DNA of 64,000 nucleotides from Oerskovia flava (GCF_026163685.1 NZ_JAOXSR010000009.1:124001-188000); one strand, 5' to 3'. Positions 43,617 to 55,981 are shown, numbered from the stretch's first letter. Program-made: numbers and translations. Notes: generated by a model not told the origin, from the letters alone.

Positions 43617-45364
43617 TGCGACCCCTTCGACACCGACGCTCCACCACCACGACCGCCGCAGCCGCGGTCCTCGCCCTGGCGGCCCTCGCGGGCTGCTCGG
43701 CCGGCACGACCGCGGCCGGCACCTCCGGTACCTCCGGCACGACGAGCTCGACCAGCACCACCGAGCAGGCCGCCGCGTCCACCGCCGCCGCGGGTCTGAC
43801 CCCCGAGGAGGCGATGGCCGACAACGCCGACCCCTCCGAGACCGCCGACCTCGCCGACGAGACCTGGGACGAGGCGGACGAGGTCGCGATCGACCTGTCC
43901 GACCTCGACACCGCCCAGGACGGCGCGGGCGTGAGCGTCGACGACCAGGTCGTGACGATCAACGCACCGGGGACGTACCGGGTCTCGGGCACGCTCGCCG
44001 ACGGCCAGGTCGTCGTCTCCTCGGCGGCCGACGGCGAGGTGCGCCTCGTGCTCGACGGCGCCGACATCACGAGCTCGACGGGCGCACCGCTCGTCGTCGA
44101 GGACGCCGACCAGGCAGTGATCGTCCTCGCGGACGGCTCGGTGAACTCCCTGGAGGACGCCGAGGCGTACGCCACCGACGAGAGCGACGACGCGCCCAAC
44201 GCCGCCCTCTACTCCACCGCGGACCTGGCGATCACGGGCACGGGCGAGCTGACCGTCGTCGGGCACACGAACGACGGCATCACGAGCAAGGACGGGCTCG
44301 TCGTGGCCGGCGGGACCATCACGGTCGAGGCCGCCGACGACGGCATCCGCGGCAAGGACTACCTCGTCCTCACCGGCGGCGACGTGACGGTGACGGCCGG
44401 TGGCGACGGCCTGACGTCCGACGACGAGGACGACGCGACCACCGGCTACGTCGCGCTGCTCGGCGGCTCGGTCAAGGTCACGTCGGGTGACGACGGCGTG
44501 CAGGCCGCCACCGACGTGATCGTCGCGGACGGCGACCTGACGGTCGAGGCCGCGGGCGGCGCGGGTGCGACGGTCGCCGACGACGCGTCCGCCAAGGGCC
44601 TCAAGGGCGACGTCGGGGTCGTGATCGGCGGTGGCACCGTGACGGTCGACGCCGCCGACGACGCCCTGCACTCGGACGGCGCGATCGCGCTCACGGGCGG
44701 CGACCTGACGCTGGCCGCCGGGGACGACGGTGTGCACGCGGACGGCGACCTGACGGTCAGTGGCGGGACGCTCGAGGTGACGACGTCCGTCGAGGGCCTC
44801 GAGGCGTCCACCATGACGCTCGCGGGCGGCGACCTCACCGTCGCGGCCTCCGACGACGGCGTGAACGCCGCGGGCGACGGCTCCGAGATCTGGCTCGAGA
44901 TCACCGGCGGCACCCTCACGATCGACGCGGACGGCGACGGGATCGACTCGAACGGCTCGCTCACGGTCAGCGGCGGCGACACGGTCGTCCAGGGCCCCAC
45001 GGGCGCCGGGGACGGCGCGCTCGACGTCGACGGCGCGTTCATCGTCTCGGGCGGCACCCTTCTCACGGCGGGCAGCTCCGGGATGGCCGCCGCCCCGGAC
45101 ACGGACTCCGCGCAGGGCTGGCTCTCCGCCACGTTCGACACCACCCTCGCGGCCGGGACCGAGATCGAGATCGTGTCCGACGACGGCACCCAGGTCGTGA
45201 CCTCCACCCTCACCAAGGACACGGGGAACCTCGTCTACTCGGCGGACGACGTCACGAGCGGCGAGACCTACACCGTGCTCGCCGACGGCACCGAGTCCAC
45301 CAGCGTGACCGCGGGCGATGCGCCCGCCGGCGGGCCGCGGCACGGCACACCGCCGGGGGCCTGA
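43613..45364 (+). CDS. Carbohydrate-binding-domain lipoprotein (DUF4353), beta-helix-like
   Basis: This is a 583-residue protein with a lipobox LAALAGC (Cys at about 27), then a Thr/Ser/Ala linker. Much of the chain is short repeats of the type GGDLTVxAxDDGVxAxG (for instance GGDLTLAAGDDGVHADG), as in the DUF4353 family, and probably forms a beta-helix on the cell surface. It has many Asp residues, suited to metal binding. It is the third gene of an overlapping operon with DUF4956 and VTC and is followed by a strong terminator. A CotH-type kinase often accompanies this set but is absent here. Confidence 0.82.
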   Translation: MMRPLRHRRSTTTTAAAAVLALAALAGCSAGTTAAGTSGTSGTTSSTSTTEQAAASTAAAGLTPEEAMADNADPSETADLADETWDEADEVAIDLSDLDTAQDGAGVSVDDQVVTINAPGTYRVSGTLADGQVVVSSAADGEVRLVLDGADITSSTGAPLVVEDADQAVIVLADGSVNSLEDAEAYATDESDDAPNAALYSTADLAITGTGELTVVGHTNDGITSKDGLVVAGGTITVEAADDGIRGKDYLVLTGGDVTVTAGGDGLTSDDEDDATTGYVALLGGSVKVTSGDDGVQAATDVIVADGDLTVEAAGGAGATVADDASAKGLKGDVGVVIGGGTVTVDAADDALHSDGAIALTGGDLTLAAGDDGVHADGDLTVSGGTLEVTTSVEGLEASTMTLAGGDLTVAASDDGVNAAGDGSEIWLEITGGTLTIDADGDGIDSNGSLTVSGGDTVVQGPTGAGDGALDVDGAFIVSGGTLLTAGSSGMAAAPDTDSAQGWLSATFDTTLAAGTEIEIVSDDGTQVVTSTLTKDTGNLVYSADDVTSGETYTVLADGTESTSVTAGDAPAGGPRHGTPPGA

Positions 45365-45451: not shown

Positions 45452-47143
45452 TCACACCTCGCAGGGCGACCCGGCGTCCCACGCGCCCCACGTCGTGGAG
45501 CCCGGCACCTCGCCGCGCGTCCACCACTGGGCGGTGTGGTTCACCCCGGCCCGCGAGACGGTCTGGCCGCCGGTGTAGGTGGTCTCGCGCGACCACGCGG
45601 GCCCGCAGGGCTCGAGCTCGACGGCCGGCGCGGTCCCGCAGGGGCCGAGCTCCTTCCACGGGTTGCCCGACGTCGCGGCCGGGGCGATCCCACGGGTCCA
45701 CCACTTCGCGGCGTACTCCGTGCCCTGGTGGGAGACGACGTCGCTGCCGGTGTAGACGCCCGAGGAGTACCAGGGGGCGGCGCACTCGCCGCCGACGCCG
45801 GGGCCCGGTGTCGCCGCACGCAGCGTCGAGCCGAGGGTCCCGCCGAGCTCGTTCTTGTAGTCGCCCGACAGGTCCCACCACATGGCCCCGCCGTAGCCCT
45901 GCACCGCGAGCCACTCGGCCTTCGCGGTGACGGACTTCGGGTCGTCCAGGCTCCACCACGCGTCGCCGTCGTAACGCCACGACGCCCCGAGGCTCTCGTC
46001 GAAGTACGCCGTGCCGACGTCGCGCAGCTTGGCGTAGTAGTCCGTGCCGAGGGTCCCCTCGGCGGGCTGCCAGGCCTCCTCGCCGTTCTCGACGCCGAAC
46101 CAGCCCTGCCCGTAGGCCGCAAGACCGGCGTTGAGCTGGCTGGGGTCGGCGCCGGCGTCGACGTACATGCCCATGGCGCCCGTCAGGCCGAGGCCCCAGT
46201 TCTGGTCACCGTCCGGGTACAGGTTGCCCTGGTGACCGGTCTGCTGGGGCACCCAGCCACCGTGGAAGTCGTAGCCCTGGACGTTGAGGAAGTCGACGAC
46301 CGCGAACAGGCGCGGGTCGAGCCAGCCGCCCTGGCCGGCGTTCCAGCCGCCGGCAGGTGCGAACGCCGTGAGGAGGTACTCCTCGCCGTCTGCGGCGCCG
46401 CGCGCGTCGAGCTCCGCACGGAACTCCTCCATGAGGAGCAGGAAGTTCTCCTTGTCCTCAGGGCGCGCGTTGGCGGTCTCGCCGCCCGTGACCGGCCACT
46501 CCCAGTCGACGTCGATCCCGTCGAAGATGCCGGCCGCGACGCCCTCGCCTCCCTTGCCGTCGATGACGGGGAGGTTCCCGTCGATGTAGATGCTCAGGCA
46601 GGACTCGACGAGCGCCGTCCGACCCTCAGCGGTCGAGGCCGCCTCGGAGAAGTTGTCCGACCAGGTCCAGCCGCCCAGCGAGATGAGGATCTTGGTGTCC
46701 GGGCTGACCTCCTTGAGCTTCCGGAGCTGGTTGAGGTTGCCCGCGAGCGCCTGGTCAGGGCTGTCGGCGGTGCCGTCGACGGAGTCCGCCGCGGAGACGA
46801 GCCGGAGGAAGTCGTTCTGCGCGTCGCCCTCGCCGGGCTCGTCGAGGATGTCGCAGACGAGGTCGGTCGTGACGTTGCCGAAGGCGTAGTTGAGGTGCGT
46901 CACGTCCTCGATCGCGCCGGTGTGCAGGAGGTCGGCGATCTGGAAGTCGCGGGTGACGGGGGTGTCCGCCATGAGATAGCCGACGCTGCGGTAGCCGTTG
47001 ATGTCGTCGGGGCCGGCCAGGGTGGGCGCGGACGGCGGTGCGGCGACGGCCGGTGCTGCCAGCAGCGACACCGCGAGCAGTGGCGCGGCGCCGATCGCGA
47101 TCGCTCGTCGGGGGTGGGGGATGCGTCTCATGGAGGGCCTCAT
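45452..47143 (-). CDS. Secreted GH18 chitinase with two CBM5/12 modules
   Basis: This is a 563-residue exported enzyme. Signal peptide: about 1-35 (AIAIGAAPLLAVSLLAAPAVAA). GH18 domain: about 48-445, with SLGGWTWSDNF and the catalytic FDGIDVDWEWP (proton-donor Glu near 210), then YDFHGGW and GGAMWWDLSGDY. Two chitin-binding CBM5/12 domains end the protein (APWYSSGVYTGSDVVSHQGTEYAAKWW and AWSRETTYTGGQTVSRAGVNHTAQWW patterns, each Cys-bounded). It hydrolyses chitin outside the cell. Its promoter region (47144-47250) is shared with the divergent sirtuin gene. Confidence 0.95.
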   Translation of the reverse strand: MRPSMRRIPHPRRAIAIGAAPLLAVSLLAAPAVAAPPSAPTLAGPDDINGYRSVGYLMADTPVTRDFQIADLLHTGAIEDVTHLNYAFGNVTTDLVCDILDEPGEGDAQNDFLRLVSAADSVDGTADSPDQALAGNLNQLRKLKEVSPDTKILISLGGWTWSDNFSEAASTAEGRTALVESCLSIYIDGNLPVIDGKGGEGVAAGIFDGIDVDWEWPVTGGETANARPEDKENFLLLMEEFRAELDARGAADGEEYLLTAFAPAGGWNAGQGGWLDPRLFAVVDFLNVQGYDFHGGWVPQQTGHQGNLYPDGDQNWGLGLTGAMGMYVDAGADPSQLNAGLAAYGQGWFGVENGEEAWQPAEGTLGTDYYAKLRDVGTAYFDESLGASWRYDGDAWWSLDDPKSVTAKAEWLAVQGYGGAMWWDLSGDYKNELGGTLGSTLRAATPGPGVGGECAAPWYSSGVYTGSDVVSHQGTEYAAKWWTRGIAPAATSGNPWKELGPCGTAPAVELEPCGPAWSRETTYTGGQTVSRAGVNHTAQWWTRGEVPGSTTWGAWDAGSPCEV

Positions 47144-50368: not shown

Positions 50369-53300
50369 CTACGGCCGGCAGCGCGAGACGCGCTCCCAGA
50401 AGAGCGGGCCCAACCCGGAGGTGGGGCGGACACCGATGTTCCCGTTGCGGGCGTCGTAGTTCGCGCCGTTGTAGGACACCGACTCCGAGTGGTCGTACCA
50501 GACGGTTCCCCGCCACGGTGCGAGGCACTGCGGTGCCTCGTCGAACGGCTCGACCGCGAGCACGGTGCGCCACCCTGCGGCCGTGACGGTATAGGTCGCT
50601 CCCGAGCCTGGCGCCTCGCCCACGAGCACCGTCGTGGTCGCCTCGGCGTCGACCCTGGCGTCACCCGCACCGGTGACGGAGAACGTCAGCGGGACGTTGG
50701 ACGCGCTGTTGTCGAGGACGACGCGTACCTCGACGAACGACTCGTCCCGGGCCGCGTCGAAGTACGGCGCACCCAGCTGCAGGGTGGCGGTGGGGTTCCG
50801 CACGGTCGAGTCCGCGCCCTGGTAGCGCTGCGTCGAGGTGTGCCGATGGGTCGAGCCGTCGGCAAAGCGAGACTGCTCGAAGACGACCGTCCCGGCGGGC
50901 AGCTCGAGGGCGGACGTCTCGATCCGGAACTCCGCGGTCGCGCCCGCCCCGACGGTGCGCTCACCCGCCGAGCCGAAGCTCCCGCTCGACATCGAGACCG
51001 TCATCGACTCGGCCGTGCTGTTCGTGAACGTCCCGACGATCACGCCGCCGCCGAACGTCGTCTCGACCGAGACCGGCGCCCGCTCGACCCAGGTCGGGAC
51101 GTAGCAGCTCTCGCCGGGGATGTCGTACCGGGCGAGCTCAGAGCCGTCCGCGCGGACGATGATCGTCTCGTCCCGCCATCCGACCGTGAACGCCACCTCT
51201 GCCTGCGTGCCCGCCCGCACCGTTCGCGAGAGATCCTCGCGGCCGTCGACCGCGAACTCGACGGGCAGGGTCGAACGGGTGTTGTCGAAGGTGACGATCA
51301 CCGCCGTCTCGGACTGCCGCGTCTCGGTGTCGAAGGTGCAACGGCCGATGTCCGGCTCAGCCACGGCCGGGGCGATGCGCGCCTCGCGCACGTCGACCGC
51401 CAGCGAGTGCCGGTACTCGGCGCGGTCACCGTCGGTGTCCTCGTGCTGGATCGTCTGCGCGAACGTCACGGCCCCGCCAGGGAGGGTCGTCGCGCCGGTG
51501 TCGATGATCAGCGTGGCCTTCTCGCCCCTGTCGAGCGTGATGGCGTCCGTGGCCTCCGCGCTGCGCGTCGCAGACGGCTGGGGAGCCCGCATCTGCACCT
51601 GCACCGGGTGGGCGGTGGTGTTCTCGACGACCCCGATCAGACGGATCTGGCCGTCAATGTTCTCGGTCGAGACGTCGGCGCCCTGGATCCACGCAGGCTC
51701 GTAGCAGTCCAGCGCGCCGTGCCGGCCCGCCGGCACCGTGTGCGTGAAGTCGGTGCCCGCGATGGTCGTCGTCAGGGTGTAGGTGCCGAACCCTGCAGGC
51801 ACGCGCACGCCGCCGGGAACCTGCAGCGCCGCGGTCTCGCCCGCGGCGAGCGACCCAGAGCTCGACGACGACCCGGCGGCTTCGAGCTCCACGTCGACCG
51901 TGCGGTAGCGGGTCGTGTTCGTGTAGCTGCCGCTGACGACTGCCTGGTTGCCGAGGCGGGAGCTCTCATCGCTCGGTAGGCACTGCGCGGCCAGCGCGCG
52001 CCCGACCCCGGCCGCGGCGCCCTCCCAGGGCTCCCGGACCGTGAGGCTCGGAGTCTGCGTGACGGAGTGCCGAGTGCCGTTCTCGGTCGCCTCGACCGTG
52101 GCCGTGAAGGTCGTGTGCGTCGCGCTGCCGGACCCGTCGGCCAGGAGCTGCACGTCGAGGACGACGGAAGGCCCGGAGTGCTGCGACGTGTCCGGCGCGG
52201 CCAGACGGTCCCCGCTGCCGTCGGTGGCGCAGGTCACCGCGCCGCCGCCTGTCGAGCACACCCACCCGTTCGTCGTGGCCGACGCCGAGACGCCGGCCGG
52301 CAGATCGGCGAGCGTGAAGGTCGTGCCGGTGACGTCGCGGTCGCCGGTGTTCGCGGCCTCGAGACGTACCGCGGCGATGCCCGGGTTGGCCAGTTGACGG
52401 ACCGTGGGTGACGTCAGCGTCACCTCAGGGCCGAAGTGCTTGGCCGGAGCGGGCTTGAACGACTTGCGGACCGGCTCGATGCCCTTCGCGCGGATGCTGC
52501 CCGCGAAGCCGTACTCGCCGCCACGGTTCGCGACGACGCCGACGAACAGCGCGCGCGACTCGCGGGGACCCAGAGTGCCGACGGCGCACGAGACCGTGCT
52601 CGTGCCGTCTCCCACGCGTGTCTGAGCGCCGCAGCGCAGCTGCGTGGGAGTGATGACCGCACTGACCGAGGCACCGCTCGTTCCGCCTGACCTGTCGAGC
52701 GTCACGTGCTGCGGCAGCACCAGGTCGACGACGACGTCGTTCGCCGTGCTGCCCCCGGTGTTGGACGCGGTGATGGGCAGCGCACCCGGTGTGCGGGCGG
52801 TGAGCTGCACGTCACCCATGGCGATATCGAGAACAGGGTCCGAGGGAGCCGTCGGGTCGGTAGGTGTCGGGTCAGGGGGCATCGGGTCGGTCGGCGCAGG
52901 ATCGGTGGGATCCGGGTCAGCGGCATCCCCGGGACTCTCCGTACCGGCTACGGGAGTGGTGTCGCCGGCTGAGGTGCCGCCCGGCGTCGTGCCCTCGCCG
53001 TACGCGGGTGGGATGTTCGTCGGTGACTCCGGATCGTTCGCCGGGTCGGTGGTGGCGGGCTCGTCCTGCGCGTCGTCGACGGCCTCGTCCGACTCGGGGT
53101 CGGTCGACGGGTCGGTGGCCGGGTCTGTCGACGGGTCGGCCGGCTCGGCCGAGCCCGGCGAGGTCGGGGGCGGCGGGGCCGCGTCGACCACCTCGTCGGA
53201 GGGCGAGAAGGCGCCCATGCCCGCGGCGACGCCGAGGCCGGCGACCGCCAGGACACCGAGCGAGATGGCGGCGACGGCGAGCGGGGACGAGGCGATGAGG

Positions 53301-54382
53301 GCACCGAGGCCGGTCGCGGTCGCCGCCGCGGCGACGCCTGAGGCACCGGTCCCTGCGGCAGCACCGACCGCTGCACCACCGGCTGCGACCGTCCCGCCGA
53401 CCGCACCGGTCCCACCGGCGACACCCCCTGCCCCGGCGGCACCACCTGAGGCACCGCCGCCAGCAGCCCCGCCGCTCGCACCTCCACCGGACGAGGCCCC
53501 ACCTGCTCCGCCGGACGAACCGCCCGTGCCGCTGCCTGCGGCACTGTCCGCACCGGCGAGCCCGCCCGCGACGGGGAGGGCGGTCCCGACGAGGCCGAGG
53601 CCCCCGATCCCGAGGACGAGCGGAGCGATGACCGACCGCATCCCGCTGGAGACGTCGCTGAGCTCGAGCACGAGCCCGCGGCACTCGCCGCAGTCGGCGA
53701 GGTGGCCCTCGACGCGCGTCGTCTCCCGCTTGGACAGGCCACCGCGGACGAACGAGCCCAGCAGGGCGTTGACCTGGCGGCACTCCTCGGCAGGCGTCCC
53801 GGCGAGGTGCTGCTGGAGGTACGCCTGCCGCAGGCCTTCGCGCGCGCGGTAGGCGAGCGCCGCGACGCCGTTGGCCGTCAGCCCGAGGATCGGGGCGATC
53901 TCGGCAGGGCTGAGCCCCTCGACCTCGGTGTACCAGAGGGCGGCACGCCACCGCTCGGGCAGCGTCTCGTAGGCCTTGGCGACCACCGAGCGCTCGAAGT
54001 CAGCGAGAGCGGGGTCCTCGGTCGAGGCCATCGGCCCCGTCGCGGACTCGAAGACGGAGTCGTCGTCCGTGGGCCGAGTGCGGCGCACTCCGTGCTGGAG
54101 GTCGTACGACAACCGGCGCACCACGGTGAACAGGTAGGCGCGGAAGGAGACGTCCGGCCCGCCGCTGCCCTGCAGGACGGCGTAGACCTTGGTGAACGCG
54201 TCGGCGACGACGTCGTCGGCGTCCGCGGCGGAGTCCACGTACTGCCGGGCGACCATGGTCGCAGCGCCGGCGTGGCGTTCGTAGAGCACACCAAAAGCCT
54301 CGGCGCCGCCCCCTCGCGCCGCGGTGATGAGCTCGGCATCGCTCGATGCCTCGTCCCACACCTGGGTGTGTGCTTGCGTCAT
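50369..54382 (-). CDS. ECF sigma factor fused to zinc-finger anti-sigma-like domain, membrane segment and large extracellular region
   Basis: This is a 1337-residue fusion. Sigma2: about 15-90 (AFGVLYERHAGAATMVARQYV, DADDVVADAFTKVYAVL). Sigma4: about 130-195 (AYETLPERWRAALWYTEVEGLS, AYRAREGLRQAYL). A zinc-finger segment follows (ECRQVNALLGSF then HLADCGECRGL, HxxxCxxC). Hydrophobic stretches at about 245-270 and 360-390 flank a Gly/Ala/Ser-rich region. A Pro/Asp/Thr linker (DPTDPAPTDP) and about 800 residues of beta-rich, DUF11-like repeats lead to a C-terminal CBM5/12-like module (WRGTVWYDHSESVSYNGANYDA). The ATG at 54382 has AGGG upstream; an ATG 16 codons earlier is less likely. Confidence 0.88.
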   Translation of the reverse strand: MTQAHTQVWDEASSDAELITAARGGGAEAFGVLYERHAGAATMVARQYVDSAADADDVVADAFTKVYAVLQGSGGPDVSFRAYLFTVVRRLSYDLQHGVRRTRPTDDDSVFESATGPMASTEDPALADFERSVVAKAYETLPERWRAALWYTEVEGLSPAEIAPILGLTANGVAALAYRAREGLRQAYLQQHLAGTPAEECRQVNALLGSFVRGGLSKRETTRVEGHLADCGECRGLVLELSDVSSGMRSVIAPLVLGIGGLGLVGTALPVAGGLAGADSAAGSGTGGSSGGAGGASSGGGASGGAAGGGASGGAAGAGGVAGGTGAVGGTVAAGGAAVGAAAGTGASGVAAAATATGLGALIASSPLAVAAISLGVLAVAGLGVAAGMGAFSPSDEVVDAAPPPPTSPGSAEPADPSTDPATDPSTDPESDEAVDDAQDEPATTDPANDPESPTNIPPAYGEGTTPGGTSAGDTTPVAGTESPGDAADPDPTDPAPTDPMPPDPTPTDPTAPSDPVLDIAMGDVQLTARTPGALPITASNTGGSTANDVVVDLVLPQHVTLDRSGGTSGASVSAVITPTQLRCGAQTRVGDGTSTVSCAVGTLGPRESRALFVGVVANRGGEYGFAGSIRAKGIEPVRKSFKPAPAKHFGPEVTLTSPTVRQLANPGIAAVRLEAANTGDRDVTGTTFTLADLPAGVSASATTNGWVCSTGGGAVTCATDGSGDRLAAPDTSQHSGPSVVLDVQLLADGSGSATHTTFTATVEATENGTRHSVTQTPSLTVREPWEGAAAGVGRALAAQCLPSDESSRLGNQAVVSGSYTNTTRYRTVDVELEAAGSSSSSGSLAAGETAALQVPGGVRVPAGFGTYTLTTTIAGTDFTHTVPAGRHGALDCYEPAWIQGADVSTENIDGQIRLIGVVENTTAHPVQVQMRAPQPSATRSAEATDAITLDRGEKATLIIDTGATTLPGGAVTFAQTIQHEDTDGDRAEYRHSLAVDVREARIAPAVAEPDIGRCTFDTETRQSETAVIVTFDNTRSTLPVEFAVDGREDLSRTVRAGTQAEVAFTVGWRDETIIVRADGSELARYDIPGESCYVPTWVERAPVSVETTFGGGVIVGTFTNSTAESMTVSMSSGSFGSAGERTVGAGATAEFRIETSALELPAGTVVFEQSRFADGSTHRHTSTQRYQGADSTVRNPTATLQLGAPYFDAARDESFVEVRVVLDNSASNVPLTFSVTGAGDARVDAEATTTVLVGEAPGSGATYTVTAAGWRTVLAVEPFDEAPQCLAPWRGTVWYDHSESVSYNGANYDARNGNIGVRPTSGLGPLFWERVSRCRP

Positions 54383-54512
54383 GCAAACCGCCCTGACATC
54401 GCGCGCTCGGAGGCTAGAGATCGCCAGCATAGCCTGCCGCCGCCGTCAGACCCAGGGTCTAGACCGCGCTCGGGAGCACGCACCGGGCGGATTCACCCTG
54501 CAGAACGGCGTC

Positions 54513-55310
54513 ATGATCGCGGAGGTCGAGGGTCTCATCGGCATGGAGGTTCATCCGGGCTGCCTCACGCCCTCACCCGACTCGCTCCGCGAGCGGTGGA
54601 GGAGCCTGAGCATCGAGTCCGTCTGGCTGCGGCCGGGCGACTGGTACCACCCTGCCGTGGACGCCCTCGTCGAGGCGTTGGCCGACGGCCGCAGCCCCGA
54701 GCCCGCGGCCGAGCGGCTCGGCTCCGCGCGCGGCGAGGCGGGCGTCAGCGTCGGGGAGACCATCGACGACGTCGCGTGCCTGTACCGCTCGACCGGCGCG
54801 GACCCGGCGCTGGCCGTCCTGCGGGCCGTCACGACGGGGTGGGTCCTCGGCAACGAGACGGCCCCGATCATCGCGTCCGTGGACGACCCCGAGACGGGCC
54901 TGGCCACGATCCCCTATCTGGTGCGACGCCTGCGAGAGACCTACGGCGCAGCAGTTCGCAGCGGCCGGAGCCCTGCGAGGAGCCACGCCCTCGTGGTGGT
55001 CGACGTCGCGGTCGAGCACCTCACGTCGTGGCAGCGGGCCGCGCGGTCCGCCGTGATGGGCGAGACGCTCACGCAGACCTTCGGCGAGGGGCACCCGATG
55101 TCCGCTCTCGGGAACGGGTCGTTCGCGATCCTCTGCGAGCGCACCGACGAGCTCGACAAGGTGATCGCGGAGCTGAGGGCACGCACCGAGCGCAACGCGC
55201 GCGCCCTGGGGGTCACCACCGTGCTGCGTCGGCCGCCGCGCATCTGGGTCGAGCCGCTGCCCCGCACCCACGACGGTGCGCTGGCCCTGATCTCACACCT
55301 GAGCCGTTGA
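54513..55310 (+). CDS. Protein with degenerate GGDEF-like C-terminal domain
   Basis: This is a 265-residue soluble protein. The N-terminal half is helical (SIESVWLRPGDWYHPAVDALVEAL). From about 150 the pattern LVVVDVAVEHLTSW, GETLTQTFGEGHPMSALGNGSFAILCE resembles a GGDEF domain in which the signature is lost, so cyclase activity is unlikely. It is divergent from the ECF fusion. A link with that sensor is inference. Confidence 0.55.
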   Translation: MIAEVEGLIGMEVHPGCLTPSPDSLRERWRSLSIESVWLRPGDWYHPAVDALVEALADGRSPEPAAERLGSARGEAGVSVGETIDDVACLYRSTGADPALAVLRAVTTGWVLGNETAPIIASVDDPETGLATIPYLVRRLRETYGAAVRSGRSPARSHALVVVDVAVEHLTSWQRAARSAVMGETLTQTFGEGHPMSALGNGSFAILCERTDELDKVIAELRARTERNARALGVTTVLRRPPRIWVEPLPRTHDGALALISHLSR

Positions 55311-55443: not shown

Positions 55444-55752
55444 TCAGCGCGGGGCGTAGGTCAGGCAGTCGGGGTGCGCCTCGCTGCTCGGTCCGGCGCC
55501 GACGCGGATCGAGTCCGCGTGGCACTCGAGCGACTCGTTGTGCCGGCACTCCCCGCGCTGGCAGGCGCCGACGTGGGCGATGACCTTGTCGAGCCCACCC
55601 TTGGTGGACAGGGGGATGAACGTGGCGCACTCGGCGTCACCGCCGTGGGCGGCGATGGTCACGGCACCGGCGTGACACCCGTGGTCGTGGTTGTACCCGC
55701 ACCCGTCGATCGAGCACTCGGCAACCTCTGGCATGTCCAGGACAGAGCTCAT
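55444..55752 (-). CDS. DUF1540 double zinc-binding-like protein
   Basis: This is a 102-residue Cys/His-rich protein with two DUF1540 units: CSIDGCGYNHDHGCHAGAVTI then AECATF, and CQRGECRHNESLECHADSIRV then PDCLTY. Each has four Cys. GAGGAG precedes the ATG. Upstream 230 bases are AT-richer than average. Function is unknown; metal binding is likely. Confidence 0.85.
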   Translation of the reverse strand: MSSVLDMPEVAECSIDGCGYNHDHGCHAGAVTIAAHGGDAECATFIPLSTKGGLDKVIAHVGACQRGECRHNESLECHADSIRVGAGPSSEAHPDCLTYAPR

Positions 55753-55981
55753 CGGGATTCTCCTCGGTGACGGTGATGATTGTTCAATTGTCAGCCACGC
55801 TATTCCTGTTCGCCACCGCTGTATAGCAAGGAAGGGCTTGCCTACATTCTTCGCGGTTCGCATTCTTTACGTCACGCATTCGTTTCTTTATTGCGCCCGA
55901 CGGGGAGGGCGCGGCACGACCGGCACGGCGGGGTCGGCACCGCGAGCATCGCCTCGGGGCGCGTTGTACCGTCGAAGAGAC

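Follow-up and report, generated by a model that had tools for sequence, protein, structure and literature searches.

Can a single polypeptide pass a signal from outside the cell to RNA polymerase, and what would control it? The question is raised by a gene in a 64,000-nucleotide stretch of the Oerskovia flava genome (GCF_026163685.1 NZ_JAOXSR010000009.1:124001-188000, the whole of which is called the window here), in which a sigma factor and a putative extracellular sensor share one reading frame. The sigma gene lies on the minus strand, from 54382 down to 50369, and encodes 1337 residues with no internal stop; an in-frame ATG upstream at 54430 would extend the protein to 1353 residues. It encodes a well-conserved one-chain membrane sigma factor. 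The one-chain sigma/anti-sigma architecture is already known, and the new lead at this locus is a conserved GGDEF-like neighbour.

Pfam identified the following domains in the N-terminal part of the protein, all with scores above the cut-off:

54098..54286, minus strand: sigma-70 region 2, residues 33-95 (Sigma70_r2, PF04542, 2.2e-9)
53837..53974, minus strand: sigma-70 region 4, residues 137-182 (Sigma70_r4_2, PF08281, 1.7e-7)
53678..53782, minus strand: zf-HC2 or zinc anti-sigma-like domain with the pattern C-x-HxxxCxxC, residues 201-235 (PF13490, 4.1e-9)

The presence of sigma regions 2 and 4 only, together with a match to the sigma70-ECF model TIGR02937 (1.8e-19, above cut-off), identified the protein as an extracytoplasmic function (ECF) sigma factor. 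The zinc finger directly follows region 4 in the same chain, as in the fused factors of the ECF48, ECF52 and ECF53 kind, and hydropathy and composition revealed the membrane helix or helices and the Pro-rich extension of that kind. Residues 210-247 also gave a weak match to the membrane-protein chain of PDB entry 3hug.

Relatives were collected by a profile scan with an alignment of the sigma/zinc-finger part, which yielded 80 from named genomes; with the full-length protein as the query, no relatives were found in genome contigs or viral contigs. The zinc-finger motif was retained in 80 of 81 proteins. For 68 of the 80 relatives the reading frame closed within the locus, and in 63 of these 68 it comprised at least 700 residues. 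Such long closed frames in dozens of relatives rule out a frameshift or an assembly artefact, indicating that the single sigma/sensor frame is real and not a sequencing error. The initial annotation of the window, which had named a frameshift between sigma factor and sensor as a possible flaw, was therefore right to place both sigma regions, the zinc finger, hydrophobic segments, a Pro/Asp linker and a beta-rich arm in one stop-free frame; Pfam, hydropathy and a structural model agree on these parts.

The one-chain design had been taken as new, but it has been described before. In ECF52 factors, which are exclusive to Actinobacteria, an ECF domain, a zinc finger, a membrane region, a proline-rich extension and a carbohydrate-binding domain occur in one chain (PMC5826349). 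The first member to be characterized, in 2018, was SCO4117 of Streptomyces coelicolor, for which it was proposed that the carbohydrate-binding module triggers activation, by way of either proteolysis or a change in conformation (PMC5826349). ECF48, ECF52 and ECF53 are placed together in a review as fused factors for which proteolytic activation is expected (PMC8999054), and some ECF52 and ECF53 members have predicted glycoside hydrolase and carbohydrate-binding domains (PMC10766802). IutY of Pseudomonas putida (ECF243) likewise combines a sigma factor and a membrane-bound anti-sigma factor in one chain, and is freed by regulated proteolysis involving Prc and RseP (PMC8999054). The genome of O. 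flava itself encodes a fused paralogue of 647 residues (L002/L093, G000 C1:330276) with a sigma factor, a cysteine/histidine region, an anchor, an acidic linker and a shorter arm.

We favour, with a probability of about 0.7, the interpretation that the protein is a signalling protein of the fused ECF48/52/53 kind, held by its zinc finger, tethered by one membrane segment (segment 2), equipped with an outside arm, released by proteolysis and assisted by the neighbouring gene product as co-regulator. At rest, the zinc-finger domain behind region 4 would keep the sigma domains inactive, while a single membrane helix would tether the chain and place the acidic linker, an immunoglobulin-like (Ig-like) stalk and a CBM5/12-like tip outside. 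If the tip bound a glycan of the wall or matrix, or if the stalk came under tension or were cleaved, proteolysis would follow, and the freed sigma-bearing N-terminus could bind RNA polymerase. The partner, a degenerate GGDEF protein, may be a cytoplasmic co-regulator that adjusts release or activity of the sigma/zinc-finger module, and its gene is itself probably among the targets of the sigma factor. Release by cleavage has literature support from SCO4117 and IutY (PMC5826349, PMC8999054). A member of the site-2 protease family is encoded in the genome, but lends this step weak support, since the same is true of all 14 control genomes. Thus, what stands of the earlier idea of a single chain from the sigma factor to an outside sensor is the conserved sigma factor, zinc finger, anchor and probably extracellular beta-rich arm; its novelty, chitin as the signal and the chitinase as the target do not.

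The proposed outside part of the protein consists of three sections:

52775..53209, minus strand: linker rich in Pro, Asp, Glu and Thr, probably extracellular by its composition (residues ~392-536)
50522..52774, minus strand: chain of ~7 Ig-like beta domains, from AlphaFold2, Foldseek and weak DUF11 similarity (residues ~537-1287)
50372..50521, minus strand: CBM5/12-like C-terminal tail, from hhalign against CBM5/12 modules with a shuffle control (residues 1288-1337)

The linker (~140 residues) contains 32 Pro and 31 Asp/Glu, with a single Lys/Arg. AlphaFold2 modelled residues 520-1337 as all-beta (mean pLDDT, predicted local distance difference test, 84.5), in agreement with the beta-rich repeats first read from the sequence. 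The best Foldseek matches of the arm were chains of Ig-like repeats and Pfam gave a weak DUF11 match; the number of domains, ~7 plus the tail, was counted from the strand order in the model.

The tail had been likened to the CBM5/12 modules of a chitinase encoded elsewhere in the window. No Pfam CBM_5_12 match was obtained for the last 50 residues even at E<=10. However, when the tail and five orthologues were compared by hhalign with the chitinase modules and three modules of L029 (Luteimicrobium subarcticum), the score was 44.3, against a maximum of 16.4 for 200 column-shuffled profiles; the window tail alone scored 27.4 against a shuffled maximum of 20.5. Scores this far above the shuffled controls indicate that the likeness reflects real homology. 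In the alignment, the WW of the chitinase modules is matched by RN in the tail, so that the paired tryptophans are gone. Exposed aromatic residues serve chitin binding in the CBM5/12 family. With WW replaced by RN, chitin binding cannot be assumed, and judging from the residues present it is doubtful. The likeness to CBM5/12 therefore holds at the level of profile homology, but not of Pfam recognition or of the WW pair. As regards the carbohydrate-binding C-terminus that is a trait of ECF52, the tail is CBM5/12-like by profile only, below Pfam detection, and not of the NPCBM type.

True CBM5/12 modules, above cut-off, were found at the end of L029, and in other relatives the same place is taken by NPCBM (SCO4117-type) or ricin-type lectin domains (other Streptomyces), suggesting that tips can be exchanged and frequently bind glycans. 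On Micrococcaceae plasmids, fused sigma genes (L009, L010) lie beside SpaA/SpaH-type pilin genes, in L010 together with a class C sortase gene, which suggests control of surface structures.

The arm might instead be mainly an adhesive or wall-anchored stalk, which would report stress on the wall or envelope, either mechanically or through access of a protease, and not a particular glycan. This would fit its composition mostly of Ig-like repeats and its widely variable length (1749, 1337 and 1081 residues for whole proteins, for example), tips that differ or are missing among relatives, and the pilin and sortase genes next to the plasmid relatives. The recurrence of lectin-type tips argues against it, and we regard this explanation as unlikely, though worth keeping in mind.

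The gene next to the sigma gene, missed in the initial annotation, is the most conserved feature of its surroundings:

54513..55310, plus strand: partner gene, transcribed divergently from the sigma gene, start codon inferred, encoding 265 residues with an N-terminal helical bundle and a degenerate GGDEF-like domain

The partner protein had no Pfam or NCBIfam match, and no description of it was found in the literature searched. Its profile matched GGDEF proteins in the PDB (7e6g, 3.3e-5) and its model (pLDDT 92.1) gave a Foldseek match to 3ezu (9.7e-6), so that both profile and model identify a GGDEF fold in the C-terminal half. The catalytic motif GG[DE]EF was present in none of 61 members, and the window protein reads GNGSF in its place. 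With the catalytic motif lost, the partner does not qualify as a diguanylate cyclase.

In 78 of the 80 genome loci, and in three records from a plasmid collection, a partner orthologue is located next to the sigma gene. When 59 additional genomes from the class were searched with the profile, three strong members were retrieved, each immediately next to a fused sigma gene; weaker matches covered mainly the C-terminal half and mostly belonged to longer frames, which is what ordinary GGDEF proteins would give. A second partner copy in the genome of the window (L094, G000 C21:61922-63234) lies tail-to-tail with another ECF factor. This factor lacks both the zinc finger and the membrane anchor, suggesting that the partner acts on the sigma domain.

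Two observations weigh against the proposed role of the partner. Other neighbours from the window are also kept in 60 of 86 loci, where the adjacency of the partner is weaker evidence. Moreover, no partner gene was detected next to SCO4117-type genes or the fused paralogue in the same genome, so that it is not required by every fused factor; the universal stress protein gene that adjoins this paralogue is not the partner. The first observation would agree with a neighbour unrelated to the sigma factor that merely reflects old shared gene order near the dnaK operon. However, among the 26 loci without any of the other tested window neighbours, the partner is retained in 21, including the plasmid loci L008 and L009 and most Pseudonocardiaceae. 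In another family it is co-directional and directly upstream of the sigma gene, and its copy beside a different ECF factor in the same genome also speaks against inherited gene order, which we consider improbable as an explanation. The partner probably acts on the sigma/zinc-finger module. More tentatively, this unnamed, widespread and catalytically dead GGDEF family may serve membrane-tethered one-chain sigma factors as dedicated cytoplasmic partners (anti-anti-sigma factors or co-inhibitors) that perhaps sense a guanine nucleotide, so that outside and inside signals would converge on a single sigma factor.

The region between both genes contains a candidate promoter element:

54508..54514, plus strand: GCGTCAT, an ECF-type -10-like element conserved in the intergenic region and reading towards the partner gene

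GCGTCAT was found in the partner-ward direction in the intergenic regions of 52 of the 80 relatives (0.04 expected per region), compared to 3 on the opposite strand. In many cases GAA comes before it, as does GAAA ~15 bases upstream. The base after the element is not G in about half of the cases, and hence the start codon does not explain it. The element's likeness to an ECF -10 sequence suggests that the sigma factor targets the partner gene. When the regulon was searched for with GAANNNGCGTCAT, only two genome matches of no clear meaning were obtained; the GAANNNGCGTCAT pattern is not ideal, because the copy in the window has the spacing GAANN.

The location of the arm depends on the topology of the chain, for which the following elements are relevant:

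53576..53632, minus strand: hydrophobic segment 1 with conserved APLVLG, from hydropathy and conservation (residues ~251-269)
53282..53575, minus strand: nearly uncharged Gly/Ala-rich tether, from hydropathy and composition (residues 270-367)
53222..53281, minus strand: hydrophobic segment 2, the most hydrophobic segment and likely the single transmembrane helix (residues ~368-387)

The conservation of two hydrophobic segments in nearly all relatives is a further point against our interpretation, since the C-terminus would be inside if both crossed the membrane. The arm would then be cytoplasmic and the protein would not be a surface sensor. The charge pattern argues otherwise. In the 60 residues that follow segment 2, 586 Asp/Glu versus 61 Lys/Arg were counted across 69 proteins, with a net acidic character in 63 of the 69. 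The stretch between the segments has 38 Lys/Arg and 23 Asp/Glu in all and is uncharged or slightly positive, and Pseudonocardiaceae members have a positively charged PRQ motif immediately before segment 2. The acidic flank, the near-neutral tether and the PRQ motif fit a tether inside and a C-terminus outside. In addition, segment 1 is on average less hydrophobic than segment 2 (mean hydropathy 1.93 vs 2.29), and Ig-like chains, Pro/Thr linkers and NPCBM, ricin-type and CBM5/12 domains are features usually seen in exported regions. A double crossing is thus quite unlikely. Going by charge and hydropathy, segment 1 is probably not membrane-spanning, and it fits a buried or membrane-associated element. 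Segment 2 as the sole crossing, with the C-terminus outside, is the favoured arrangement; a cytoplasmic C-terminus had been named at the outset as the finding that would contradict a sensor. The tether varies in length from ~23 to 365 residues and is almost charge-free (L013-L092 and the window).

The surroundings of the sigma gene also include the chitinase gene:

45452-47143, minus strand: GH18 chitinase with two CBM5/12 modules (Pfam)

It lies ~3.2 kb from the sigma gene stop, with four genes in between. No GH18 gene was found in the flanks of any relative, even with sir2, tadA and upp kept; conserved around the sigma gene are these three, a winged-helix gene, dnaJ and a merR-type gene. Some of the flanks end short of the chitinase position, and 16 loci reach sir2, its adjoining gene. 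No copy of GCGTCAT occurs between 44820 and 49075, the surroundings of the chitinase. With neither a conserved neighbourhood nor the promoter element, the chitinase is unsupported as a linked target and was rejected as such. The first proposal, a chitin-sensing tip and a sigma factor that turns on the neighbouring chitinase, is therefore very improbable in spite of the CBM5/12-like tail and a chitinase gene only 3.2 kb away, given the lost WW pair and the failure of Pfam to recognize the tail. Adjoining the chitinase, a gene at 43700-45364 (plus strand) strongly matches the Cthe_2159 carbohydrate-binding family (1.4e-95). A gene for a small Cys-rich DUF1540 protein (55444-55863, minus strand) is conserved close to the sigma gene across 32 related loci.

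One-chain sigma sensors are a known but barely studied kind, to which this locus adds many relatives that vary stalk length and tip on a constant core of sigma factor, zinc finger and anchor, with a conserved neighbour gene. The part worth following is the GGDEF-like neighbour; the link to chitin is weak. Should this neighbour control the sigma factor, it would provide a concrete handle on the switching of such factors, and link GGDEF-type proteins to ECF sigma factors.

Among known systems, the protein resembles ECF52/SCO4117 in combining an ECF sigma factor, a zf-HC2 domain (pfam13490), one or more membrane segments, a proline-rich linker and a C-terminal module in one chain. However, SCO4117 ends in a single NPCBM-type module, whereas the window protein has ~7 Ig-like domains and a CBM5/12-like tail. 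In a tree that represented SCO4117 by SCO4117-type sequences (L106-L108) and not by the protein itself, these NPCBM-bearing sequences (the tail of L106 matches NPCBM at 8.6e-31) grouped with the Streptomyces ricin-lectin members. The window protein, with its GGDEF-like partner gene, fell into a separate clade, suggesting that it is of the same kind but outside the SCO4117 clade. By their published description, ECF48 and ECF53 are also similar, with C-terminal fusions that comprise a zinc finger and one or two membrane helices (PMC8999054, PMC10766802). IutY shares the combination of sigma factor and membrane-bound anti-sigma factor in one chain and the release by regulated proteolysis (PMC8999054), but serves siderophore signalling in a Gram-negative bacterium and is without a glycan-binding arm. 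In the SigI/RsgI systems of Clostridium thermocellum, carbohydrate-sensing domains on the outside also control a sigma factor (PMC12203970, PMC4711584), but sigma and anti-sigma factor are two separate proteins and SigI is not an ECF factor. For the partner, the closest parallel is RmdB and sigma-WhiG, in which a sigma factor is bound by a GGDEF domain that works against the corresponding anti-sigma factor (PMC13232838). RmdB is an active phosphodiesterase for cyclic di-guanosine monophosphate and WhiG is not an ECF factor, whereas the partner in the window combines a degenerate GGDEF domain with a helical bundle.

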